In this document: positions 2,115 to 19,578 of the stretch, piece by piece
How positions within the stretch are numbered: the stretch's first letter is position 1
Layout: the number at the start of each line of letters is the position of its first letter
Origin: a virus
IMG/VR virus record: IMGVR_UViG_3300025168_000909
Coordinates: 1-20,118 of that record
Strand: one strand, 5' to 3'
DNA length: 20,118 nucleotides
The notes under the pieces: model-generated
Databases searched by the model: none
The model's input: the letters and a program-made list of their open reading frames with translations, nothing else
Told to the model about the DNA's origin: nothing
Made by a program: the position numbers and the translations under genes

Positions 2115-3926
2115 TTAGCCAGTTGCGCCGGCTTCACCAATGAGTCCGCGGACGATAACAAGACCGTACATATCAGGACGCACCATTTGCTTGGCATAAC
2201 GCGTCATGACTCCCTTACGGGGTACGAAGTCTTCTGGTCCGAAGATCGTAGGTGTAGTCTGCAGTGGTACGTAAGGTGCGTACACGTATCCGCTTTCAAG
2301 GAAAGAGGAGCCGCGGCGTCCAACGAGAACCACGTTGCGCAGGAAGTATGGGTCAACAATGACGTCAAACTTCTTACTCAACGAACCAACCTTGACGGCA
2401 CCGACAGAGCCAGTCTCGTCATCAGCGGTAACGCTAGCACGGAATCCAGCAGTGAACTCAAGCACGTTGGCGATTTCAGGTCCGCAGACGAGAAAGTTAG
2501 CGCCACCACGCAGAGTCTTACGATGGATCTGGGCAGAAACGTCATTGATTGTCTCAATGAGTGTCTCGTACCACTCGCTCACAGTACCTGTGAAGTCGGG
2601 AGCAGCAGAAGCAGCACCGATTTCAGCACCAGTCTCGCGGTTCAAGAAGAGACCCGGAGAACGCGACCAGTAGTAGGTAGAAGCTGTAGCACCATTCACA
2701 AGGTCCGCAAGGATCTCGCGATCGATTTCAAGAGCAATCTGCTCCGAAAGGATGCTTGTAAGCTCGACCTCTGCATCAAGGTTGTGGTAAGCGTTAAGAT
2801 CCTGTCCTAACTCTGGAGTCCACTTAGCCTTGAGCTTCTTGGTCTGTGCGGTAACAGCGATGCTATCCACCTTGATGTCAATCTCGGGGATCTCTTCGCT
2901 ATTCTCAAGACCCCAAAGAGCAGTACCGACAACCGAGCCAATAGCATTGCTAGCAATGATATTATCCTTGATTGGGAACTGACACATGGCTTCAAGAGAA
3001 CCAAGAGCAACATTCGAGCCAGCAACACCACCAGCACTATCAGCACCGATAACAACGAAACGAACGTTCGAAGAATCTGCGGCGCCTGTCTGCATGGTAA
3101 GACGACGAATCAAGAAGGATTCATCACCAACATTGGTTGCAGTTGTTCCACCACCCTGACCACCGAACGATGCCGAGAAAGCACCAAGGTTCTTAAAGTC
3201 AGCGGGCTGTCCACTCTGGGAACCAGTGAGTACACTACCAGCACACTCAAAGACAGCAACACCAATGCGCTCGCCCGAAGACGAAAGTGCAAGGATGTCG
3301 GGGTCATACTGAAGCCACTTACGACGCTGCGTCTCGGTAGAACCGGAGAGCGAGAAGTTGTCAGCAAGATTCCACTGGGCAGTCTCAACACCGCCGGAAC
3401 CACTTGGAGACGCATAAGCGTAACCACGTGCACCAACTGTGCGAGGACCAGATGCATCAGAACCGGATGTAGCTGTTAAGCTAACACCGCCTGTGATCTG
3501 GGAACCAACCTGTGCTGTACCATAAATGGACTTATCAGCAACGTTACCAAAACGATCTGTCATGGTGTTCGATGCACCAAGGTTTGGCGAGAACACGAAG
3601 TCGAGGAAGAAGATAAGTCCACTAGGGAGACTCATCGGCTGAACGGAAACGAGATCGTTTGCGATCAATCCTGCAAACACACGACGAACGATGGGGAATG
3701 CGACAGCTGCGAAGCCCTCAACATCACCACCAGACATAGTGCTGCTCTCACGAAGAAGTTCCTTGGCTTGATTCTCAAGAAGTCGAGCCATAGCATTCTT
3801 TTTACGGTCACTTGTCAGGCCTTCTAAAAGACCTGTGCGCTCCCACTTTGTTAACAAAGCATGACCTTCGGCGCGCATATCACGGTTAACGATACCTTCC
3901 GTTAACCTTTCAACGATACTAGACAT
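2115..3926 (-). CDS. 23: Major capsid protein (T4 gp23-like precursor)
   Basis: This 603-aa protein builds the capsid shell. The gp23 signature is clear: residues 363-404 run KKLKAKWTPELGQDLNAYHN and continue through a DAEVELTSILSEQIALEIDR segment, and residues 549-590 contain YAPYVPLQTTPTIFGPEDF and MVRPDMYGLVIVRG. The N-terminal 60 residues look like the removable arm of T4 gp23. LRE at 58-60 fits the L/I-x-E site of T4-type prohead proteases and lies near the known T4 cut after residue 65. T4 gp23 is 521 aa; the extra length is mainly a Gly/Ser-rich region around residues 140-310, where the gp23 insertion domain falls. Codon use is biased (GCT Ala, CTT Leu), as expected for an abundant protein. 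The gene has a full-length Shine-Dalgarno site and its own terminator. Confidence 0.97.
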   Translation of the reverse strand: MSSIVERLTEGIVNRDMRAEGHALLTKWERTGLLEGLTSDRKKNAMARLLENQAKELLRESSTMSGGDVEGFAAVAFPIVRRVFAGLIANDLVSVQPMSLPSGLIFFLDFVFSPNLGASNTMTDRFGNVADKSIYGTAQVGSQITGGVSLTATSGSDASGPRTVGARGYAYASPSGSGGVETAQWNLADNFSLSGSTETQRRKWLQYDPDILALSSSGERIGVAVFECAGSVLTGSQSGQPADFKNLGAFSASFGGQGGGTTATNVGDESFLIRRLTMQTGAADSSNVRFVVIGADSAGGVAGSNVALGSLEAMCQFPIKDNIIASNAIGSVVGTALWGLENSEEIPEIDIKVDSIAVTAQTKKLKAKWTPELGQDLNAYHNLDAEVELTSILSEQIALEIDREILADLVNGATASTYYWSRSPGLFLNRETGAEIGAASAAPDFTGTVSEWYETLIETINDVSAQIHRKTLRGGANFLVCGPEIANVLEFTAGFRASVTADDETGSVGAVKVGSLSKKFDVIVDPYFLRNVVLVGRRGSSFLESGYVYAPYVPLQTTPTIFGPEDFVPRKGVMTRYAKQMVRPDMYGLVIVRGLIGEAGATG

Positions 3927-3931
3927 AATTT

Positions 3932-3943
3932 ATCACCTCCTTA
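3932..3943 (-). promoter_or_regulatory. Perfect 12-base Shine-Dalgarno site of the major capsid gene
   Basis: On the coding strand TAAGGAGGTGAT is the exact complement of the conserved 3' end of bacterial 16S rRNA (ATCACCTCCTTA). GGAGG ends 9 bases before the ATG at 3926. Other genes here have only 4-6 matching bases, so this site marks the most strongly translated gene of the window. Confidence 0.9.
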
Positions 3944-3961
3944 TATATAATGATTTTATGT

Positions 3962-5230
3962 TTATTTTATTCCAGCTAGTCTCTTCATCCTATCCTGCAA
4001 GGGATCGGACGAAGGCTTCTCATTGTGTCGAGAAGCACGTATTACAGAAGAACGACGTGTGATTGCCTCGCTCAGTGATTGTGGGCTTTTTGTAGGTTTA
4101 GCCTCCACTGTGCTTTGAAGCGTATCGAAAATCGTTCTTGCTTCTGTAACAGAACCGGCGCGTGAAATAGCTTCGACAATTCTTTCTTTTTGTCGCTCAT
4201 TTAAGGAGGTATTTCTTAATACTCGGTTCGTATAAAGTAGGCGAGCATTCGAAAGGTTTACATCTTGTAAGCCTTCCTTAAGCTGGGTTGTTGCCTCTTT
4301 ATATTGAGAAAGGTGCTCTCTGAGTTGTTTATTTTCAAAAACTAACTCTTCTTGAGCTTTTCTTAAAACTTCTAATTCGTCTTGCATATCGGTGCTCCGG
4401 CGGTGAGCGAGAGCTTTTTCCATCTCCCACTTCTGACTCTCGGAAGAGCGGCCGGCCCAACCAGAAAGGGTTGCACCCATATCAACTGTTAATTTTTCGA
4501 CAATCTCATCTACAAGAAAGTCAAAACTTTCTTCTTGTACATCCGGATCGTCCTTGTCGGCGTCGGCACCATCTGGTACCCCATCACCATCATCATCCAC
4601 GCCTGCGGCGGAGCGCGCTCCATCGGAATAAGGGCCTTTCTTTTCGGCAATTCCATCCATCTGATCTTTATCTGCCTCCGCAGCAGCTGCGGAGCCTGCT
4701 AGGGCAGATCCGCTATTGTCATCATCATCTTCTGCCTCTTCTCCAGCAAAAGAACCAGGGTCATCAACGCCCTCTGCAAGAAGGTCTTCGAGATCTGACA
4801 TTTCAAAATCAAGTTCAGCAGATTCGTCTAGAGTAGCCTGTAGGTCAGTGATGGCTTCCTGAAGGGAGCCAAGATCTAGATTGAACTCAACTTTTTCTCC
4901 ATCCGAAAGATTGCCGCTTAAGCCAGTACCGCTTTTATCGCTAATACCATCGATTGCGGCCAAAGGAACATCGTCGGGATCGACAATTTCTTCGACAGGT
5001 GCATCTCCCGTGAGTGCATCGTCTTCCATCTCGGGCTCCATGGCAGCCTCTTCGGGGGCGCCTATCTCACCTCCCATTGACAAATCCAAATCGTCTTGTT
5101 CTAGGAGCCTTTCCAGCGCCTCTCTCACTTCTACAGAATATTTATCTATAATAGACGCTTCTGCGTTCTTAAGGGCGGCTTCTTTTAATGCCGTGGCATC
5201 AACTATAGCTTCTTTGAGCAAACTAGACAT
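3962..5230 (-). CDS. 22: Prohead scaffold/core protein (T4 gp22-like)
   Basis: This 422-aa protein is very acidic in its first 235 residues and strongly helical with coiled-coil character from about 265 to 375. It is placed directly before the major capsid gene, as gp22 is in T4. The segment NARLLYTNRVLRNTSLNERQ (328-347), followed by KERIVEAIS, is the part I associate with marine T4-like scaffolds. Several L-x-E sites (for example LKE at 5-7 and 15-17) could be cut by the gp21-type protease, as happens to T4 gp22 during maturation. Residues 212-229 contain a DDDGDGVPDGADADKDDP calcium-loop-like sequence. The C-terminus RMKRLAGIK is shared in part with the 430-aa head-operon protein. It is longer than T4 gp22 (about 270 aa). 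AGGAG lies 7 bases before the ATG. Confidence 0.9.
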   Translation of the reverse strand: MSSLLKEAIVDATALKEAALKNAEASIIDKYSVEVREALERLLEQDDLDLSMGGEIGAPEEAAMEPEMEDDALTGDAPVEEIVDPDDVPLAAIDGISDKSGTGLSGNLSDGEKVEFNLDLGSLQEAITDLQATLDESAELDFEMSDLEDLLAEGVDDPGSFAGEEAEDDDDNSGSALAGSAAAAEADKDQMDGIAEKKGPYSDGARSAAGVDDDGDGVPDGADADKDDPDVQEESFDFLVDEIVEKLTVDMGATLSGWAGRSSESQKWEMEKALAHRRSTDMQDELEVLRKAQEELVFENKQLREHLSQYKEATTQLKEGLQDVNLSNARLLYTNRVLRNTSLNERQKERIVEAISRAGSVTEARTIFDTLQSTVEAKPTKSPQSLSEAITRRSSVIRASRHNEKPSSDPLQDRMKRLAGIK

Positions 5231-9412: not shown

Positions 9413-9841
9413 CTAAACTCCTACAGAGCCAGAGAAGTTGGGTCCTAAAGTGCCAGAAGTTCTTTGTCTGGGAATAGTAGTGAGACCAGAAACCACATCG
9501 CACGTTCCTGCCGTGGCGCCATAAAGCCAAATATTAGAAACCTTCATCTCATAAATGTCAGACTTTCCAAAACCACCAGATCCGCTAGGAGGGACTGTAA
9601 AATAATATTTATCTCCTTTGTCTGAAGTTTTTGCGCCTGTAACGCCAGCTGCAGAGAAACCCACTCGTAAGTCTGAAGCTCCTCGATTAAAGACTTGGAA
9701 CCAACGACTAACATATGGCAAGTCAACCAAGCGCGCTGTAGTATCATAAATGACACTAGCGCTAGCAAAAGGGCGTCCGCTGACTTGGTATGCAGGGACA
9801 TTATTGATCCCTACTTCCATTTTCCAATAGTTGCCGCTCAT
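9413..9841 (-). CDS. Virion-type beta protein, unrecognised (142 aa)
   Basis: The sequence is beta-rich with aromatic strands: NVPAYQVSGRPFASASV (14-30), LPYVSRWFQVFN (41-52), DLRVGFSAAGV (57-67) and a final GLTTIPRQRTSGT. I associate this pattern with small virion proteins of marine T4-like phages but cannot name a family. GGAGG 7 bases before the ATG supports the start. A copy of the recurrent ACTATTTATA motif lies 29-38 bases upstream and overlaps the stop of the bS21 gene, so a transcript may start here. The gene heads the block of fibre-like genes, which suggests a related role such as attachment protein or decoration protein. Confidence 0.75.
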   Translation of the reverse strand: MSGNYWKMEVGINNVPAYQVSGRPFASASVIYDTTARLVDLPYVSRWFQVFNRGASDLRVGFSAAGVTGAKTSDKGDKYYFTVPPSGSGGFGKSDIYEMKVSNIWLYGATAGTCDVVSGLTTIPRQRTSGTLGPNFSGSVGV

Positions 9842-9869: not shown

Positions 9870-9879
9870 TATAAATAGT
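9870..9879 (-). promoter_or_regulatory. Recurrent intergenic motif (coding strand ACTATTTATA)
   Basis: This lies 29-38 bases before the 142-aa gene and overlaps the TGA stop of the bS21 gene. It marks the border between the tightly packed head-assembly operon and the fibre block. Confidence 0.32.
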
Positions 9880-10124
9880 CACTTATTATTCCTATTCCGT
9901 CTTTCTTGCGCTCTTTGTTTTTTAAGCCTTTCTCTCTGGCGTGCTCTTTCTGCGCGTGCACGCTTTTCTTTCTTGGCAACAGAAGGCTTTTTGTAGCGAC
10001 GTCGATCTTTTACCTGTTCGATGATACGTTCTTTCTTTACTTTCTTGTTAAACTTGCGAATCATTTTTTCGTTATTGCCGCGACATTCGCGCGATGTTAC
10101 AGATACATTTATTTTTTTGCTCAT
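9879..10124 (-). CDS. rpsU: Phage-encoded small-subunit ribosomal protein bS21
   Basis: This 81-aa, extremely basic protein matches the bS21 pattern. Residues 19-58 (EKMIRKFNKKVKKERIIEQV, then KDRRRYKKPSVAKKEKRARA) follow the order of E. coli S21, where a Lys/Arg-rich helix leads to a Y-x-KP turn and a second helix. It is about 10 residues longer than E. coli S21, mainly at the Arg/Gln/Lys-rich C-terminus. bS21 sits on the 30S platform near the 16S 3' end and helps mRNA recruitment. Viral bS21 genes are known from marine and freshwater phages. Here the gene is in a head-assembly operon, 7 bases after the 141-aa gene, with TAGGA serving as both stop and Shine-Dalgarno site. It probably enters host ribosomes late in infection; the effect on translation is inferred. 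Confidence 0.9.
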   Translation of the reverse strand: MSKKINVSVTSRECRGNNEKMIRKFNKKVKKERIIEQVKDRRRYKKPSVAKKEKRARAERARQRERLKKQRAQERRNRNNK

Positions 10125-10131
10125 TTTATTC

Positions 10132-10557
10132 CTATTTCATTGCTTTCCAAATTTGTGACGCACCACCCAAAAGCGATGAGATGTCTACACCAGCATCACC
10201 AGGGTTACCCAAATCAACAGTGCCTGCTTTGGGGGTCGAGGATTCATGGGCCGTCATAGCCTCTGTGCCTTCAAAAAGATTAACACCATTGTATGCGTCA
10301 GAGCCGACTGATTTCATAAGGTTTTGGCGATGTTCTTGCATTTTCTTCCGGGTCTGTGCCGCTTTTTGTTTTTGCGGAGGGTTCCCAGTAAATAGAGAAT
10401 CGTTAGATTTTTGCTGTGTTTCGACAACAAGATTGCCCTGCATGCCTTTGGCCACCTCGGCCACAACATTCGAAAGAAGACCCTCTTCGATGAGAACTTC
10501 ATGAATGCACTCTTTAACGAGCGGCTTGATTAATTGTTTTAAGTCTGATTTCTTCAT
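10132..10557 (-). CDS. Head-operon protein of unknown function (141 aa)
   Basis: The first 40 residues form an amphipathic helical segment (MKKSDLKQLIKPLVKECIHE, then VLIEEGLLSNVVAEV) like those I associate with proteins of uncultured marine myophages. The middle is charged and Gln/Lys-rich (PPQKQKAAQTRKKMQEHRQN), and the C-terminus ends DISSLLGGASQIWKAMK. The start codon overlaps the stop of the 430-aa gene (ATGA), so the two are probably translated together. LIE at 22-24 would suit the prohead protease. It is probably a minor core or internal head protein, but I do not recognise the family. Confidence 0.78.
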   Translation of the reverse strand: MKKSDLKQLIKPLVKECIHEVLIEEGLLSNVVAEVAKGMQGNLVVETQQKSNDSLFTGNPPQKQKAAQTRKKMQEHRQNLMKSVGSDAYNGVNLFEGTEAMTAHESSTPKAGTVDLGNPGDAGVDISSLLGGASQIWKAMK

Positions 10558-11846
10558 TTTATTCCTGCTAATAGTTTCCAGTGATTGAGTATTTTTTGTT
10601 CATTGAGATTGCGATCATCATCATCGGCGTAGTAGGCTAACCTTTTTTTCTCTTTGTCATATTTCATTTCTAGAACGTCTCTAATTTCGTCTAATGTAAA
10701 ACCGGATTTCTGAGCGTAGGTTTTAAATTTTTCAAGGTTGTTGGCGTTCTCGAAAATGGCGTCGAAGAGTTTAACGGTGTCTCCGGACGGATATTGTTCC
10801 GCCCATTTGGCGATTTGCGTGTTAGCTCCACTCCATATCCTATCGAGCGTTCTTGCATTATCAAGCAACAATCTCTTCCGGATCCTGATCACTTTTTGTG
10901 CCGGTGTTTCATCTTCATCTGGAGCCCTAGTGTCTTCTTCGGGTTCTGGTTCTGGCTCTTCTGTGGGCTCTTCGGGTTCTGGTTCTGGCTCTTCTGTGGG
11001 ATCTTCCTTTTTCTCGCCCTCGGAATCGCTGCGGGTGGTCGAAAGTGTGGCGCCCAAGGAGGCGACGCGCTTTTTAGCTGTCGCCTTTAAGGCATGTGCT
11101 GTCGCGCGGTGATATGCGGCTGCCTTCATGGCTTTGACCCGGCGCGCAATAACCTCTCGATATTTGACCAGCTCCTCTTTAGATATCTTGCCGGCATCCG
11201 CAGCTGCAGTCGCTTTGGCAAGAAGTTGAGTTGCTATCTTTTGGGTTTCTGCGTTAATCTGCTTTTCCATAGCTACCCTTTGGTCCAGCAAGCTTTGCTC
11301 TTTTTTCTTTTTGACTTTAGCTTCAGATGTGGTGGTGGACTCACTGTCACTGCGGCCGAAGGATGACGCAGCTCGATCCACGAGCCCCAGCAAGCTGTCT
11401 ACTCCAGGCAACGAACCAAAAATATCCGTTGGCAGCTCATCATCAGTTGCAGCAACTTCAAGGGTCGATTCCTCTTCGGACGCTCTAACTTCCATGGCTG
11501 CCATCTCATATGAGTCTTCTAGTTCTCTGGCAACGGCCGCTCTCCGAGCTGGAGAAAGTGTAGCGAATCCGGCCTGAACGTGGCCGGTCCAATAGCCGCC
11601 GTACATAAAGTCGCGAGCGCTCTGGACTGCTTCGGGTACATACTTTATAACGACGCTTAGCAGGAATGGGAGTGCCTGCTTGAGGACTTCACCTCCCATC
11701 TTCAAAGCGGCCTTTCCGACCATCCTCCAATCGATTTCGCGCAACAGCTCTTCATCTTCAACAGCAGTTACTTCTTCCTCGTTGACAAACTCACGCCATG
11801 CGTCGAAAGTTGCTTTATCGTCGTTAAAGCTGCTCCAATCACTCAT
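10554..11846 (-). CDS. Large charged head-operon protein, possible internal/core protein (430 aa)
   Basis: The N-terminus MSDWSSFNDDKATFDAWREF is followed by an acidic stretch and a helix with hydrophobic character around 55-75 (LKQALPFLLSVVIKYVPEAV). Residues 185-270 are Lys/Ala-rich and helical, then comes a Pro-Glu region (about 280-305) made by a 33-bp tandem duplication, and a helical C-terminal domain. The last residues NHWKLLAGIK share LAGIK with the scaffold. The gene starts 8 bases inside the protease gene and overlaps the 141-aa gene by ATGA. This position beside the protease, the charge pattern and the C-terminus suggest an internal head or core protein. No known family is recognised, so the role is inference. 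Confidence 0.8.
   Translation of the reverse strand: MSDWSSFNDDKATFDAWREFVNEEEVTAVEDEELLREIDWRMVGKAALKMGGEVLKQALPFLLSVVIKYVPEAVQSARDFMYGGYWTGHVQAGFATLSPARRAAVARELEDSYEMAAMEVRASEEESTLEVAATDDELPTDIFGSLPGVDSLLGLVDRAASSFGRSDSESTTTSEAKVKKKKEQSLLDQRVAMEKQINAETQKIATQLLAKATAAADAGKISKEELVKYREVIARRVKAMKAAAYHRATAHALKATAKKRVASLGATLSTTRSDSEGEKKEDPTEEPEPEPEEPTEEPEPEPEEDTRAPDEDETPAQKVIRIRKRLLLDNARTLDRIWSGANTQIAKWAEQYPSGDTVKLFDAIFENANNLEKFKTYAQKSGFTLDEIRDVLEMKYDKEKKRLAYYADDDDRNLNEQKILNHWKLLAGIK
10936..11001 (-). repeat. 33-bp tandem duplication encoding a Pro-Glu repeat
   Basis: Two adjacent 33-base units (10936-10968 and 10969-11001) differ at only their last base. Each encodes 11 residues of the type PTEEPEPEPEE. 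DNA identity this high points to recent slippage or duplication within the 430-aa gene. Confidence 0.92.
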
Positions 11847-12444
11847 CGTCCAAAACCTCGTTCAATAATCTATTGATACGATCGGCTTTGGTGAATACGT
11901 GATTGTTGAAGTTCTTGGCCTCTTGCATCATAAATGCGTTTGGTGTCGACGGCTCTGACACAAAATCAAAACAAATAAGCTGAAAGTCATCCTCTACAAT
12001 CGTTTGGCCTGCGCTCTCGCTTACAGAGCCCATGCCGCGAGAAGAGATTCCAAGTTTAACGCCAGATTCTACAAGCGACTTAAGTATGCCACCTGAAGGA
12101 GTGTCAAGTACCTTAACTTTCCCCATCACATTCTTCTGGTCCCACCATACATCAGTTACCATATGCGATGCATTCTTTAAGTTGATGACCGAATCCTCGG
12201 GATGATCAAGTTCACCGAGTGCTCTGCGTTCTTGCACGAGCTTTTGGTAGTTTTTCATCTCGCGCATTAAAACCCGGTGAGGATATACTCTGCCGTTTCC
12301 GTTTTGAACGTCAGCTTCTTGAAGCTTTCCAGACAAAATCATGCCGCCGTTTGCCACGTATCTCTTTTCCTCTTCGGTTAAAAGATCTTGACAAACGCCG
12401 CCTTCGCAGAGTTCATAGTATTCTCGTAAGAGCTTCTTGCTCAT
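11839..12444 (-). CDS. 21: Prohead maturation protease (T4 gp21-like)
   Basis: The protein is 201 aa, close to T4 gp21 (212 aa). The fold family is that of herpesvirus-type assemblin proteases. Visible motifs are NGRVYPHRVL (50-59), LGELDHPEDS (76-85) with the probable catalytic His81, and GISSRGMGS (132-140) with a probable catalytic Ser at 134 or 135. A CFDFVSEPSTPNAFM segment (158-172) also fits the family. It cuts scaffold, capsid precursor and core proteins at L/I-x-E sites during head maturation. AAGGAT lies 8 bases before the ATG. In T4 the scaffold gene follows directly; here about 6.6 kb of other genes intervene. Confidence 0.95.
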   Translation of the reverse strand: MSKKLLREYYELCEGGVCQDLLTEEEKRYVANGGMILSGKLQEADVQNGNGRVYPHRVLMREMKNYQKLVQERRALGELDHPEDSVINLKNASHMVTDVWWDQKNVMGKVKVLDTPSGGILKSLVESGVKLGISSRGMGSVSESAGQTIVEDDFQLICFDFVSEPSTPNAFMMQEAKNFNNHVFTKADRINRLLNEVLDDE

Positions 12445-13566: not shown

Positions 13567-14383
13567 CTTCAAATATTTCCTTTACTAGTTGCTGTGTTTT
13601 TAATACAGTCAGGAGCATCTTATCATTAACAGGCTCTGCTTTAAACGAATCAAAACGCTCTAAAATGCTTTTAGCTTTCTTTAGCATTTCAGGATCTTGC
13701 TTGATAATATCGCCACCCATAGACTTTTCTAAAGCCTCGCGGAGTCTGGTTAGCTCGCAATTCAAAAACACCTTCAACTCTAATCCATTATTTACAAAAG
13801 ATGAAATATAGTGTTCCAGCAAAGTTTTCTGCTCACTCAATAGAGAGTTGTTATATTTATTATTAAATTTGGCAACAAAAGATTTATAAACCACATCATC
13901 TATTTCGCCAACTGGTGCGCTTTGTGTGGGGGTGCCACTCATATCAGATAGCAGCTGCGTTTCTAGCATAACTCTTTGCTTGGGAGAAGACTTGTCAGAA
14001 AAGATGTGGTATATTGTTGCAAGAGTGCGATAGTTAGGAACAAAAGTATTATAAAAATCTCTTTCTATTTCAACATTAACATCTTTAATGAGATCACTCT
14101 GTTTCACGAACAGACCGTGGGCATCAAGCAGACGGCTAGCTTGTTTAGCCTCTATGAGAATTCTTTCGGCAGTTCTCTGATCAATGTTCTGATTTTCGTA
14201 CAAAGAACGATAGCAATCTAAGTGTTGCTTTAAAATCGACCCTTCCTTAAAGTGTTTCTTGAGCAAAGACACCGCTATTTTATGACGTCTTTTGTCTTTC
14301 TTCATCGCTGCTACTGTAACTTCGCGTACGAGAGACTCGTAAATAAAAGCAGTATTTCTTTTTTTATTATGCCTTATCTTCAT
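13550..14383 (-). CDS. Helical head-operon protein of unknown function (277 aa)
   Basis: The ATG at 14383 has GGAG 6-7 bases upstream, which makes it a better start than the TTG five codons earlier. The protein is basic at its N-terminus (MKIRHNKKRNTAFIYESLVR) and almost wholly helical, with charged heptad-like stretches such as LLKKHFKEGSILKQHL. It overlaps the portal gene by 17 bases and the next gene by 17 bases, so the three are probably coupled in translation. Its place directly after the portal gene suggests a head core or portal-associated factor. I do not recognise a family. Confidence 0.78.
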   Translation of the reverse strand: MKIRHNKKRNTAFIYESLVREVTVAAMKKDKRRHKIAVSLLKKHFKEGSILKQHLDCYRSLYENQNIDQRTAERILIEAKQASRLLDAHGLFVKQSDLIKDVNVEIERDFYNTFVPNYRTLATIYHIFSDKSSPKQRVMLETQLLSDMSGTPTQSAPVGEIDDVVYKSFVAKFNNKYNNSLLSEQKTLLEHYISSFVNNGLELKVFLNCELTRLREALEKSMGGDIIKQDPEMLKKAKSILERFDSFKAEPVNDKMLLTVLKTQQLVKEIFEDADRS

Positions 14384-16388
14384 TCTTATTCTCCACAAGT
14401 ATATTGTCTTTTTTCTCTAAACCTTCTAGAAGAGTGCGAATAGTACTGTTCAATTCAAACAACTTCTGCTCTTCAACTGTTTCTGTCATTGAATAAATAG
14501 ATTCATTTTGTTCATAAATACCTCTTCCTGCCGATGGCATCGCTAAAGTATTTAAGTCGGTGAGGCCTGGGACGGTATTTCTAGTAGTACTAGAAGATTT
14601 TTCTTTTGACCATTGGCTTTGCATATGGCGCGTCCTGGCGCCCCTTCCTCTTCTATCTCTTTTGACTGGTTGGTACACTTTTCCTTTGGATCCGGGTGTT
14701 AGTCGCGGTGAATCTCTAGAGCCTGGAGGCACTGCTAAAAGAGAAGAATCATCCCCGCCCCCCGTGTCTGCTGATGCATCACCGGCGGGCATCTCTTCTG
14801 GACCTCCCAGATCAAGACCTCCTTCTTCGCCACCAAGTTCTCCGCCAAGATCACCTCCCAGATCGCCACCCAGATCGCCACCAAGATCTCCGCCTAGGCC
14901 ACCGCCTTCGCCAGCAGCTGCAGCTTCAGCAACTGCTTGCAGTGACGCGTCATGTTTGCGATCGTAGTACATCTCTCGTTGATTGCGAATAAACTCTTCA
15001 TTAGACATACCAAATATATGTTCAGTGACCCAGCGCCGCGAGAAGAAGCCTTCAGTGGCGGAACCGGCAATGTCAAACTTCTGCTTCCAGTGCTCAATCT
15101 CTTGAAGTTCTGCGATCTTTGAAGGGTTATTGAGAGAGAGGCCAAAAGATAGTAGATCGTCGCCGCGGAAACCCAACGTATATAAGTGGATGATACCAAC
15201 CTTCTCAAGTTCTGACACGATGACTCGCTGCAATCTTTGGATCGTTCTCGCAAAACGAATGTCTTTTTGAGCTAGCGTAGTCTTATCTTCGGCGGCGCCT
15301 TCGCCCATAGCGAGATATGCTTGGGGTATTTTTAATGCAGAAAAGAGCTTATCGCGGAGATACTTAATATCATCAATCGCTGTAATGTTTTGGGCGCCGG
15401 CAAGAGATGTAATCTCTGTCGCGGATCCTGCACGAACAGGGATGAAATAATCTTCTTCAATAGACATCGGATTATAGCGTAGATCGACTCGACCAGATGT
15501 AGGATCTACTACCGAGTGGCGTTTAAGTTGCGTTACAATCTTTTGCATGTACTGTTCGACTTCATTGGGAGGCACGGCGCCGACATCAATCTTAAACACT
15601 CGGCGTTCGGACGAACGCACTACACGATAAGCCATCATGGCGTCTTCCATAAGAACCAATTGGCGCCAGATGCGACGAGCAGGTTCTAAAATAGAGGTGC
15701 CGTATGGAGCATATTTGTCATTTCCCAAAATACGGAAATGACAAACCTGCCAGTTCTCAAATGTCATACCCGCGGAGTTCCATTGATATTGCACATAGTT
15801 AGGGTTGGTGGAATCCATACCTTCTAGTCTTTCAATCTCTGAACTGGGAAGCGCAATAACCGATTGAACTCCGAACTTATCATCAATATCTAAATAAAGA
15901 AAGAAATCTCCATACTTACACATTGTTCTGGCCCAACCAAAAAGATTATATTGAGCGTTAAGGATGTTGTCATAAAGAATCGCCAACACCGCCTTAATTT
16001 CTTCATTCGGACATTTGATATTAATCATAGGACGTAAATCAGAATATGTTGTCATTTCATCTGCATAAATATCCATTGTTGATGCAATCTCTGGCATATA
16101 CTCCATTTGGTCAAAGTCAACATAGCGCTCGTTTCTGCGCTGATTTGCAATAGCATTTGTAGCAATATTATCTAAAGGATTATATAGGCTCTTTTTGAAC
16201 TGCTGGCCGCTGGCTGTTTTAAATCGTGAAGAAAACTTATCTAGATGTTGACGTCGAATGCGGCGGCCGGTCTGCGAACGATAGTTTATAATCGGTCCTG
16301 AAAACAACCGAGTCAAGGCCTTAAACAATGTAGACTGTTGGTTGGCCGGGTTTTTACCTTGTGATTTGTTGCGGTTCTTTGGTGCCAT
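14367..16388 (-). CDS. 20: Portal protein (T4 gp20-like) with a long C-terminal extension
   Basis: The portal forms the 12-fold ring at one capsid vertex through which DNA is pumped. This 673-aa protein carries the gp20 core: MEYMPEIASTMDIYADEMTT (95-114), YAPYGTSILEPARRIWRQL (226-244), ERRVFKIDVG (261-270), SIEEDYFIPVRAG (309-321), the LAGAQNITAIDDIKYLRDKL segment (329-348) and LKIPQAYLAMG. T4 gp20 is 524 aa. Here the extra length is mostly C-terminal: an Ala/Gly-rich start, the (LGGD)n repeat at 498-529, then a Ser/Arg-rich linker and an acidic helical end. The terminase gene is just upstream, with 8 bases between them. Confidence 0.95.
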   Translation of the reverse strand: MAPKNRNKSQGKNPANQQSTLFKALTRLFSGPIINYRSQTGRRIRRQHLDKFSSRFKTASGQQFKKSLYNPLDNIATNAIANQRRNERYVDFDQMEYMPEIASTMDIYADEMTTYSDLRPMINIKCPNEEIKAVLAILYDNILNAQYNLFGWARTMCKYGDFFLYLDIDDKFGVQSVIALPSSEIERLEGMDSTNPNYVQYQWNSAGMTFENWQVCHFRILGNDKYAPYGTSILEPARRIWRQLVLMEDAMMAYRVVRSSERRVFKIDVGAVPPNEVEQYMQKIVTQLKRHSVVDPTSGRVDLRYNPMSIEEDYFIPVRAGSATEITSLAGAQNITAIDDIKYLRDKLFSALKIPQAYLAMGEGAAEDKTTLAQKDIRFARTIQRLQRVIVSELEKVGIIHLYTLGFRGDDLLSFGLSLNNPSKIAELQEIEHWKQKFDIAGSATEGFFSRRWVTEHIFGMSNEEFIRNQREMYYDRKHDASLQAVAEAAAAGEGGGLGGDLGGDLGGDLGGDLGGELGGEEGGLDLGGPEEMPAGDASADTGGGDDSSLLAVPPGSRDSPRLTPGSKGKVYQPVKRDRRGRGARTRHMQSQWSKEKSSSTTRNTVPGLTDLNTLAMPSAGRGIYEQNESIYSMTETVEEQKLFELNSTIRTLLEGLEKKDNILVENKNEDKA
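14802..14897 (-). repeat. 12-bp repeat tract encoding (LGGD)n in the portal tail
   Basis: The units encode LGGD four times, then LGGE twice, then degenerate copies ending DLGG (residues 498-529). Neighbouring 12-base units differ by one to three bases, for instance GATCTTGGTGGC and GATCTGGGTGGC. The tract is likely to vary in length by slippage and to act as a flexible linker. Confidence 0.88.
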
Positions 16389-16396
16389 TTATTCTC

Positions 16397-17983
16397 TCAC
16401 TTTATAATCCATTTATATTGTTGGTATAACTTTTCAGCTTCAGTCATTTTATCAAAAATTTGATCTTTTTTGTATCCATGTTGACCTTTAATCTGTGTGT
16501 TCATAGTTGTGCGAGCTGTATAAATCGCGCTAACGAAAGCTTTTTGATAGTTTAAATCTCGCGCATTAACTTGAAGAGCAGTATCCCTGACCCAGCAAGC
16601 GATCGCGAGAGCCATGATAAGATCATCATTATATCCTTTCATTGCTTGCGGTTTACCATTCCTCCAAATAAAAGTTTTCATCTCGTTGGTTGTACGAGAA
16701 GAATATATGGTAATTAGTTTGTTTCTGATAAACTCCTCTAATTTGGCTACGATGAGAGGTCTCGTCTTCATTGATGTGGTAAAACCGGGTACCGCAGAGT
16801 TTGTGTTCTCTGCTTGGTGTTGTTCAATATACTCATGGGTCGACTTAATAGAATGATATACATTGGGATACTGGTAGTCATCCATCAACTTTGTCAGGAC
16901 TGAATATCCAATATTGTTGTTCTCGACCACAAGCATACAACCGCCAAATTCTCTACCCACACTATTGAGCATATTAGCAAACATATCTAATGTCGGCTTT
17001 CCTTGGTATTCCCCTACCACTTGCAGGGTCTCAAGTTTAATAATATGAAAAGTAGAAAAGTCGGCGCCGTCTCCTCTTGAAACATCGGCCACTAACAAGT
17101 AATTGCATGTAGGATCAAACTCCTCCCAGATCCAAAAGTTTCTATCAAACCCAGTTCTGTACTTGGGCTCACATACAGTAGACAGCATCCACTCCATACA
17201 ATCAGGATCAATAACTGTCTCCCCTGAAGTGTTGAAGTTGCATTCTAACTCTTGCGCGATCTGCCTCTTGGACATATTCTTGGTTTCTTTCTTATACCAC
17301 TCTCGGTCTCTGTCGGGGTGTACGTCCCAAGATAGCATCGTAAGGTGAAAATTGTTAGCGCCAGCTTCAGAGTCGCTACAAGTTTTATGGAACCAGTTAC
17401 CCACTCCGTTGGGCGTAGAAAGGGCTATACAGCGACCACCCGTTGATAGGGTGGGATACAGGCCAGTCCACAGCTCTTCAAGGTTTTCAATATGAGCCGC
17501 CTCGTCAAGGACCAAAAGAGACAGAGCTTCCGAGCGACCAGCATCGCCGGAGGTAGAGGCTGCCTTAATCGTAGAGCCATTAGATAGTTCAAATGATGTG
17601 CGGTTATCGACACTAATCGTTGCAATCTTTAACCAGTCAGGGACATTGCGCATAATGCTTTTGACTTTCTTAACCAAGTTTCCTGCTGTCGCAAACTTGG
17701 TTGCCATAACAAGAATAGCCTTATCGCGGTGGAATAGCATCATCCATACGATATAGCCTGCGGTAATAGTTGAGATACCTAGCTGACGAGCTTTTAGAAT
17801 AACGTTAAAACGGTAATCATTAAAATCTTCGAGAAGGTCATCTTGGAAGTCGAAAGTGTTAAAAAGAATAAGTCCATGTAATGGGTGTGATATTCTTGCG
17901 TAGTTGTTGAGGAAGTAGGAGGGATCTTTTCCACACTTAAGTATCTCTTTTACTTGTTCTTTTTTGTCTAATTGAAAGCTCAT
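16397..17983 (-). CDS. 17: Terminase large subunit (T4 gp17-like packaging ATPase and nuclease)
   Basis: This 528-aa protein pumps DNA into the prohead and cuts the concatemer. ATPase motifs: Walker A KARQLGIST (64-72; T4 has SRQLGKTT), Walker B LLVLDE (156-161, with D160 and E161), and coupling motif STPNG (189-193). Nuclease motifs: ADVSRGDGADFS (299-310, D300), VVENNN (352-357, E354) and NDDLIMALAI (452-461, D453 or D454), which together fit the RNase H-like metal site. Note that the Walker A lysine of the classical GKT is replaced by Ile-Ser and the usable Lys/Arg is at the start of the motif, as in other large terminases. No small subunit gene is seen in the window. No strong Shine-Dalgarno site lies before the ATG. 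Confidence 0.97.
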   Translation of the reverse strand: MSFQLDKKEQVKEILKCGKDPSYFLNNYARISHPLHGLILFNTFDFQDDLLEDFNDYRFNVILKARQLGISTITAGYIVWMMLFHRDKAILVMATKFATAGNLVKKVKSIMRNVPDWLKIATISVDNRTSFELSNGSTIKAASTSGDAGRSEALSLLVLDEAAHIENLEELWTGLYPTLSTGGRCIALSTPNGVGNWFHKTCSDSEAGANNFHLTMLSWDVHPDRDREWYKKETKNMSKRQIAQELECNFNTSGETVIDPDCMEWMLSTVCEPKYRTGFDRNFWIWEEFDPTCNYLLVADVSRGDGADFSTFHIIKLETLQVVGEYQGKPTLDMFANMLNSVGREFGGCMLVVENNNIGYSVLTKLMDDYQYPNVYHSIKSTHEYIEQHQAENTNSAVPGFTTSMKTRPLIVAKLEEFIRNKLITIYSSRTTNEMKTFIWRNGKPQAMKGYNDDLIMALAIACWVRDTALQVNARDLNYQKAFVSAIYTARTTMNTQIKGQHGYKKDQIFDKMTEAEKLYQQYKWIIK

Positions 17984-18260: not shown

Positions 18261-18799
18261 TTTTCTTTTTTCCTTGTATCGTTATCGGGTCTGGTTCCCC
18301 AGCCTCCTTGTTCTAAAAATGTTTTCCAGCCTTTCTCTACTGGATTGGTAGAGCCACTGTTGTCATCGTTCATGTTGTTGGAAAGACCTCCCACCTTATA
18401 GTGCTTTTGAGCTAGCACCCAAGAACGCACACGAGATGAGTTTTCGACCCTAACATCAACTTCACCAACTTCTGTTAAAGTAACTCCGTTGCCTGTGATT
18501 TTTTTGTATTCCTTTGCAATCCAACCTTTAATGTCGGTGAGTCTTTGGTCGATTTCTCCTTCGAAGCCGCTAGCGTATACTTCTTTCAGCTGAATTTCAG
18601 AATGGTAACTTAAGCACATCATGTTACCATAAAACTTTACATTAAATCCATCCATTACGCGCTGATCAATAAGGGCATCGCCCTCTTCGCGTCGTAAGAT
18701 GCCATCCTTTGCTGGCTGGTAGTCTTCGCCGAGAGCGCCATCATAAGCGTTAGCGGCGGCTTGTGCTAATCCTTGTACTATTTCATAAACTGTTGCCAT
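18257..18799 (-). CDS. Phage protein of unknown function (180 aa)
   Basis: The N-terminal half mentions a helix MATVYEIVQGLAQAAANAYD and the segment DQRVMDGFNVKFYGNMMCLS; the middle is charged (FEGEIDQRLTDIKGWIAKEY); the end is a polar, Gly/Asn-rich tail finishing DNDTRKKEK. GGAG lies 8 bases before the ATG. The start overlaps the end of the zinc-ribbon-like gene by 17 bases and the stop overlaps the 83-aa gene. I do not recognise a family, though it looks like a conserved gene upstream of the terminase rather than a chance frame. Confidence 0.78.
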   Translation of the reverse strand: MATVYEIVQGLAQAAANAYDGALGEDYQPAKDGILRREEGDALIDQRVMDGFNVKFYGNMMCLSYHSEIQLKEVYASGFEGEIDQRLTDIKGWIAKEYKKITGNGVTLTEVGEVDVRVENSSRVRSWVLAQKHYKVGGLSNNMNDDNSGSTNPVEKGWKTFLEQGGWGTRPDNDTRKKEK

Positions 18800-19172
18800 T
18801 TTCGGGTCTCCATCCTTTTAGCCATCTCTCTTCTCTTCCCTCGACATATTGAATATAGCATTTATTGCAACACTCAAATTTGACGAGGCAAACATCATCC
18901 ATAGATTTCTTTGGGAAAGACCCGCAGACAGGACAACTTTTTAAAGATTCTCTATTAAGTAGTTTTTTTGAGATCTTAATCCCATTAACATCTACTTTTT
19001 CTTGCCACTCTTCATTCTTGCGTTGTTTTTGATAAAAATGCTTTGATTGTAACAGGTATTCTTTTTCTTTTTCTTCGTTCCAATTTCCACGTGGGTTTTG
19101 GATCGCTTCCTTCCCGTATTTTTCTGCGATCGCCTTCTCAATTCGAGCGATCTTATCTGGATCTTTACTCAT
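18783..19172 (-). CDS. Zinc-ribbon-like small phage protein (129 aa)
   Basis: The ATG at 19172 (MSKDPDKIARIEK) is preferred over one 11 codons earlier that would give a longer overlap with the upstream gene. The first 65 residues are charged and helical. The C-terminal part has CPVCG (80-84) and ECCNKC (100-105), six Cys in all counting C95, which could bind one zinc ion. It ends ERWLKGWRPENGNSL. Zinc ribbons of this size often bind nucleic acid or protein, but no specific function can be assigned. It overlaps its neighbours by 8 and 17 bases. Confidence 0.78.
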   Translation of the reverse strand: MSKDPDKIARIEKAIAEKYGKEAIQNPRGNWNEEKEKEYLLQSKHFYQKQRKNEEWQEKVDVNGIKISKKLLNRESLKSCPVCGSFPKKSMDDVCLVKFECCNKCYIQYVEGREERWLKGWRPENGNSL

Positions 19173-19578
19173 TAAACACGCGGTACGCAGCATAAGTGGT
19201 AGCAACTCCTGCTGCTATGCCGCCGGCAAACCACCACAACTTATTGCTCGGTGACTGACTCAACATTGCCTCTTGTAAGGCAGCAATCTCAATGTCTTTT
19301 TGCTCGATACGCAAGTCGGACTCGCGCATCAAAGCATCTAAACGAATTTGAAAATTTTGACGCTCAAGGTGAAACTCTGTAGCCTGTACATCTAAATGAT
19401 ACTCAACCTCTAGGTCGCAACCCATTCTGTATTCTTCAGGCAGAACTAACAACTCGGCAATGCCGCGCTTATTAAACAAAACACCCTCAAAGGGCGCTGG
19501 CTCATTTTCTCCAAGAATAGTAAACTGTGGCGGCTGAGCATATGCCGCCGTAGAAAATAACAATGCTTTAAGGAACAT
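19165..19578 (-). CDS. Secreted coiled-coil protein with C-terminal membrane helix, possible spanin-like lysis protein (137 aa)
   Basis: Residues 1-14 (MFLKALLFSTAAYA) look like a short signal peptide with an AYA-Q cleavage site. The segment ENEPAPFEGVLFNKRG (24-39) follows, then a coiled coil at about 58-107, and a membrane helix at 114-131 (KLWWFAGGIAAGVATTYAAY). The order of exported N-terminus, periplasmic coiled coil and C-terminal membrane helix is that of a unimolecular spanin, but no lipobox Cys is seen after the signal. A stop codon 9 codons upstream of the ATG rules out a longer N-terminus. The start lies 11 bases inside the previous gene. It could instead be an inner-membrane or endolysin-regulating protein. 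Confidence 0.75.
   Translation of the reverse strand: MFLKALLFSTAAYAQPPQFTILGENEPAPFEGVLFNKRGIAELLVLPEEYRMGCDLEVEYHLDVQATEFHLERQNFQIRLDALMRESDLRIEQKDIEIAALQEAMLSQSPSNKLWWFAGGIAAGVATTYAAYRVFNE

Follow-up and report, generated by a model that had tools for sequence, protein, structure and literature searches.

A bS21 gene with a fixed, co-oriented place among the head genes of a marine T4-like phage lineage

The DNA analysed here (the window) covers all 20,118 bases of an IMG/VR virus record. Judged from its genes for the large terminase subunit (TerL), portal, protease and gp23 capsid protein, it is a fragment of a marine T4-like phage. Positions 9879–10124 of the minus strand encode an 81-aa protein with an ATG start, which according to its family matches is a genuine copy of ribosomal protein bS21. 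The gene is a well-supported further case of the published phage bS21 located in head genes. The explanation that we hold to be probable, although by no means assured, is that this bS21 is functional. The head cassette is fixed and co-oriented; bS21 would be produced from it alongside the head proteins, and its translation would probably be coupled to the small gene directly upstream. It would most likely swap into 30S subunits of the host, and the exchanged protein would keep initiation on phage messages going during the mass production of capsid.

An earlier reading of this DNA, made from the sequence only, had assigned the 81-aa product to bS21, and family comparisons agree. The ORF scores 35.6 bits against Pfam PF01165 Ribosomal_S21 (curated cut-off 27, E 7.4e-9) and 34.3 bits against the NCBIfam equivalog TIGR00030 (curated cut-off 28.95). 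The profile search, proposed in that reading as a check for another basic protein family, returned bS21 models. PHROG 21469, "ribosomal protein S21", is matched at E 0.0024. In phmmer against PDB, the window protein retrieves 34 sequences, all bS21 or bS21m except for two designed proteins that match at E 0.005–0.007. The profile of 62 viral relatives matches solved bS21 chains with a best E of 7.9e-7. The described pattern of a basic helix, a Y-x-KP turn and a second basic helix is seen as well: YKKP occupies residues 44–47, and the AlphaFold2 model (pLDDT 80.7, pTM 0.38) predicts helices at 18–43 and 49–79 around the KKPS turn. Foldseek of this short helical model against PDB gave no match at E <= 10, which may count against the explanation above; the sequence matches to bS21 chains are clear. 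The K46-P47-S48 turn and the core residues are invariant across 62 bS21 sequences. The median dN/dS is 0.18 for 189 pairs of related viral bS21, a ratio by which these copies are under purifying selection.

In the window, bS21 is flanked on one side by the genes for prohead protease (11839–12444; Pfam Peptidase_S77, E 2.5e-31), portal protein (14367–16388; Pfam Portal_T4, E 1e-76) and TerL (16397–17983; PHROG 2, E 1.4e-50), and on the other side by the gp23-type major capsid gene (2115–3926; Pfam Gp23, E 4.8e-72). All of them are on the minus strand. The capsid gene is preceded by a conserved neighbour (3962–5230, minus strand), called scaffold-like by position only and without a Pfam match above the cut-off. 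The small partner gene directly upstream of bS21 (10132–10557, minus strand) likewise has no Pfam match above the cut-off. The gene downstream of bS21 (9413–9841, minus strand) is conserved in 69 of 82 loci, a count in which the window stands twice; its second row, L001, is left out from the capsid Shine-Dalgarno (SD) counts onward. The proposed location in a head gene cluster is thus confirmed, while the "fibre block" said to adjoin it is weakly indicated by one Pfam tail-spike match below the cut-off. Elsewhere in the window, a cysteine-rich ORF at 18783–19205 weakly resembles the Lar restriction-alleviation family (E 0.018, below the cut-off).

The scan of IMG/VR with the window bS21 protein found 104 relatives, 80 of which were kept. 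Together with the window, they constitute a placement set of 81 loci. The 80 relatives include near-copies; the distinct proteins number 62, counting that of the window. In all 81 loci, the labelled gene that immediately precedes bS21 is the same small gene, and bS21 and every labelled head gene are co-oriented. In 81/81 loci, the start of bS21 either overlaps the stop of the partner gene or is no more than 14 bases away from it. This spacing suggests translational coupling, and bS21 is probably coupled in this way to the small upstream gene. The partner gene, present in 81/81 loci, equals bS21 in its invariance and may be the functional counterpart of the bS21_CN gene of Chen et al.

The second scan was started from the capsid protein regardless of bS21. 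It gave 79 new loci, 19 of which span the interval from protease to capsid. bS21 is located between these two genes on the same strand in 19/19 spanning loci, two of which are contigs already present in the bS21-queried set. Relatives without bS21, which could serve as natural controls, were not seen among these 19 loci. Flavobacterium phage immuto has no bS21 between protease and capsid; its host differs.

The capsid gene of the window carries AAGGAGGTGAT at 3932–3942 (minus strand), five bases before ATG. It is an extended SD with an 11-base match and a duplex energy of -18.4 kcal/mol, and the next strongest SD in the window is -10.7 kcal/mol. The description of this site as "maximal" is therefore justified, and it generalises to the relatives. 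In the bS21-queried set, the capsid SD has a median of -11.6 and is never weaker than -8.2 in 40/40 loci; genes without a placeable start were left out of this set, capsid genes in 0/40. The capsid SD is the strongest among the labelled genes in 22 of the 31 loci that have eight or more labelled genes. The median is -9.3 in the capsid-queried set, where 79 of 83 rows, including those of three named control phages, could be used and four capsid rows were left out.

These strong capsid sites could be taken as a sign of a selective late switch, in which ribosomes carrying the phage bS21 favour strong-SD phage messages, capsid above all, over those of the host. Such a role would be in line with the effect of bS21 on SD use reported for Flavobacterium johnsoniae (PMC9976891) and with the preferential translation of phage transcripts proposed by Chen et al. 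(PMC9723584). We regard it as unlikely. In eight large relatives, the share of ORFs with an SD of -6 kcal/mol or stronger is 44.6% of 233 within 15 kb of bS21 and 40.4% of 804 beyond 40 kb (p = 0.39). The medians of five early and eight late genes, assigned by homology to genes of T4, P-HM2, HTVC008M and immuto, are -4.3 and -5.7 (p = 0.12), a difference that is not clear with so few genes. SD use is enriched genome-wide in the lineage, 31–51% versus 15–22% in shuffles, and T4 is similar with 31% versus 14%, these fractions being rough in absolute terms because ORF calling mechanically took the first ATG as the start. Because SD use is genome-wide and is not enriched near bS21, a late SD switch is not supported. 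Prochlorococcus phage P-HM2 also has a strong capsid SD (-10.8), and the 41-kb stretch of it that was examined annotates no bS21. The SD of bS21 itself in the window is weak: an SD-like AGGA at 10130–10133 (minus strand; -4.2) that overlaps the stop codon of the upstream gene. These observations weaken the link between bS21 and initiation sites drawn in the sequence-only reading. As bS21 is present in all spanning members, the lineage itself provides no control.

Control of the head genes by T4-type late promoters was also considered. The motif TATAAATA, which we take to be that of T4-type late promoters, is not found in gene orientation in the window. Its two copies are both on the plus strand, opposite to the genes, and this candidate was dropped.

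The tight linkage with head genes might also reflect a function in the head. bS21 might be a basic protein recruited to the prohead core or coinjected with DNA, with the ribosome as a secondary site of action. Packaging was raised as a possibility by Chen et al. (PMC9723584). The unvarying location, with the protease gene on one side and the capsid gene on the other, and the long basic second helix predicted in the AlphaFold2 model would fit such a protein. However, the family scores are still above the curated cut-offs, the turn and core residues have stayed invariant, and the pelagiphage bS21 gene lies outside the head cluster. A head protein or packaged cargo thus appears quite improbable, and the sustained initiation on phage messages by exchanged bS21 is preferred.

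The residue at the position of Tyr54, read by gap-free count from the KP turn, gives clues about the host. In Bacteroidia, the 16S tail is described as bound in a pocket formed by bS21, bS18 and bS6, and Y54A in bS21 of F. johnsoniae raised the translation of strong-SD reporters (PMC9976891). Tyr54 is named as the residue stacking on the anti-SD by Chen et al. (2022, PMC9723584). Among close relatives of the window protein, this column contains Arg in 62 of 63 and Asn in one. Tyr is seen in 6/6 bS21 from Bacteroidota/Chlorobiota MAGs, and Lys or Arg in 14/14 other bacterial bS21. In the more distant head-cassette set (22 sequences), the column is variable and never aromatic. Arg at this position, together with the SD-rich genomes, suggests that the anti-SD of the host is usable. 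The binning of contigs is weak and contradictory evidence on the host: one relative (L082) is binned in a Flavobacteriaceae MAG, and another (L083) in an Acidiferrobacteraceae MAG.

Of eight large records of bS21 phages that were searched, six carry a tmRNA gene (L108:9469-9890, L121:5525-5864, L128:4026-4362, L146:18710-19047, L138:2203-2533, and L145:11884-12222), with tags of the form ANNN...RLAA. All four phage tmRNAs submitted to Rfam passed RF00023. The tags in the lineage end in RLAA, whereas five Bacteroidota tags end in ALAA or AMAA. The phage tags are unlike both the Bacteroidota and the gammaproteobacterial MAG tags compared, and the best Bacteroidota matches to the phage tmRNA cover only its 3' end. 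A second tmRNA, with the tag ANTDVEQAYALAA, is located at L261:1503-1832 in the same Acidiferrobacteraceae MAG as the phage contig L083; L261 is possibly another phage contig. SD use and tmRNA tags together speak against a Bacteroidetes host.

The contrast between Arg and Tyr, the effect of Y54A and the binning of L082 could be combined into the proposal that a Tyr54-type bS21 of the host hides the anti-SD and that the phage Arg form frees it, activating SD-led phage genes. This is very improbable, since phages of known Bacteroidota hosts have no SD enrichment (immuto 2% versus 2% shuffled, phi38:1 7% versus 4%), SDs of the lineage occur also far from bS21, the binning is weak host evidence, the tags end differently from the Bacteroidota tags compared, and Lys or Arg stands at this position in all 14 other bacterial bS21 examined. 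Equally doubtful is the extension that ribosomes would be made to read SDs and that the capsid message, through its extended SD, would profit most. If it were true, phage bS21 would be a natural anti-SD release subunit.

The explanation by sustained initiation, with bS21 made alongside the head proteins, is supported by the family scores, the dN/dS, the uniform placement in both scans, the genome-wide SDs and the prevalence of the capsid SD as the strongest site. We infer late synthesis of bS21 from the position of the gene only. Viral bS21 has been described widely, and one, from a pelagiphage, entered E. coli 70S ribosomes (Mizuno et al. 2019, PMC6375957); by this precedent, the window bS21 would enter the ribosome, too. 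A benefit for capsid translation would be a further step. In the same report, translation by ribosomes with the pelagiphage bS21 was down to about 5% in E. coli extracts, which counts against the explanation and means that a benefit is not given.

The marine lineage extends the head-cluster bS21 beyond freshwater Bacteroidetes phages, as a gene that is invariant and co-oriented. It combines a residue of the non-sequestering type with SD-rich genomes, which speaks for a benefit of phage bS21 that is independent of hiding the anti-SD. The Arg type and the Tyr type offer a clean comparison for the effect of viral bS21 on the choice of start sites.

Neither the placement nor the idea is new. For rpS21 of huge phages, the promotion of phage initiation was proposed as a hijack hypothesis (Al-Shayeb et al. 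2020, PMC7162821). The sequence-only reading had presented the placement and the link to the anti-SD as novel; both are already contained in Chen et al. (2022, PMC9723584). That paper describes bS21 surrounded by genes for TerL, portal, protease and capsid, late transcription, a core structural gene no more than ten genes away from bS21 in 388 of 900 published bS21 phages, an anti-SD connection and a translation-switch hypothesis. The freshwater Bacteroidetes phages described there resemble the window in this neighbourhood and in having a conserved neighbour gene. The differences are in strand, in the Tyr54 position and in SD use. bS21 of the Chen phages is opposite to the head genes, whereas it is on the same strand in all loci of both scans here; the Tyr54 position is aromatic in 61/61 cases among the Chen phages and Arg in nearly all members of the window lineage.

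Three other phages can be compared. Microcystis phage Mel-JY01 (PP395634.1), a cultured isolate for which the literature search found no paper, shows the same order on one strand: protease, small gene, bS21 (annotated RpsU, WWT39311.1), further genes, scaffold-like gene, and capsid. Its bS21 (P0002) is divergent and was not found by tblastn with the window protein, and its capsid SD is weaker (-6.4 versus -18.4). In the 484-kb record of huge phage LR756508, an unannotated 79-aa bS21-like ORF (L168:17747-17986; LR756508.1) precedes scaffold-like and capsid genes. Unlike in the window lineage, its bS21 is very divergent, its capsid SD is weak (-3.0) and SDs are little enriched. Pelagiphage HTVC008M shares with the window a bS21 in a marine T4-like phage, and it is the HTVC008M protein that enters E. 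coli ribosomes (PMC6375957). Its gene is found in the replication region, with CobS and Hsp20 on either side, whereas that of the window is among head genes. The bS21 tree is based on 80 columns, has long branches and came with warnings from the program itself; it comprises 24 random close relatives, the window and L082 (25 distinct rows), plus all other sequences. In this tree most cassette bS21s cluster, Mel-JY01 and LR756508 are placed among the bacterial rows, and HTVC008M, with a branch length of 3, is placed inside the phage rows.
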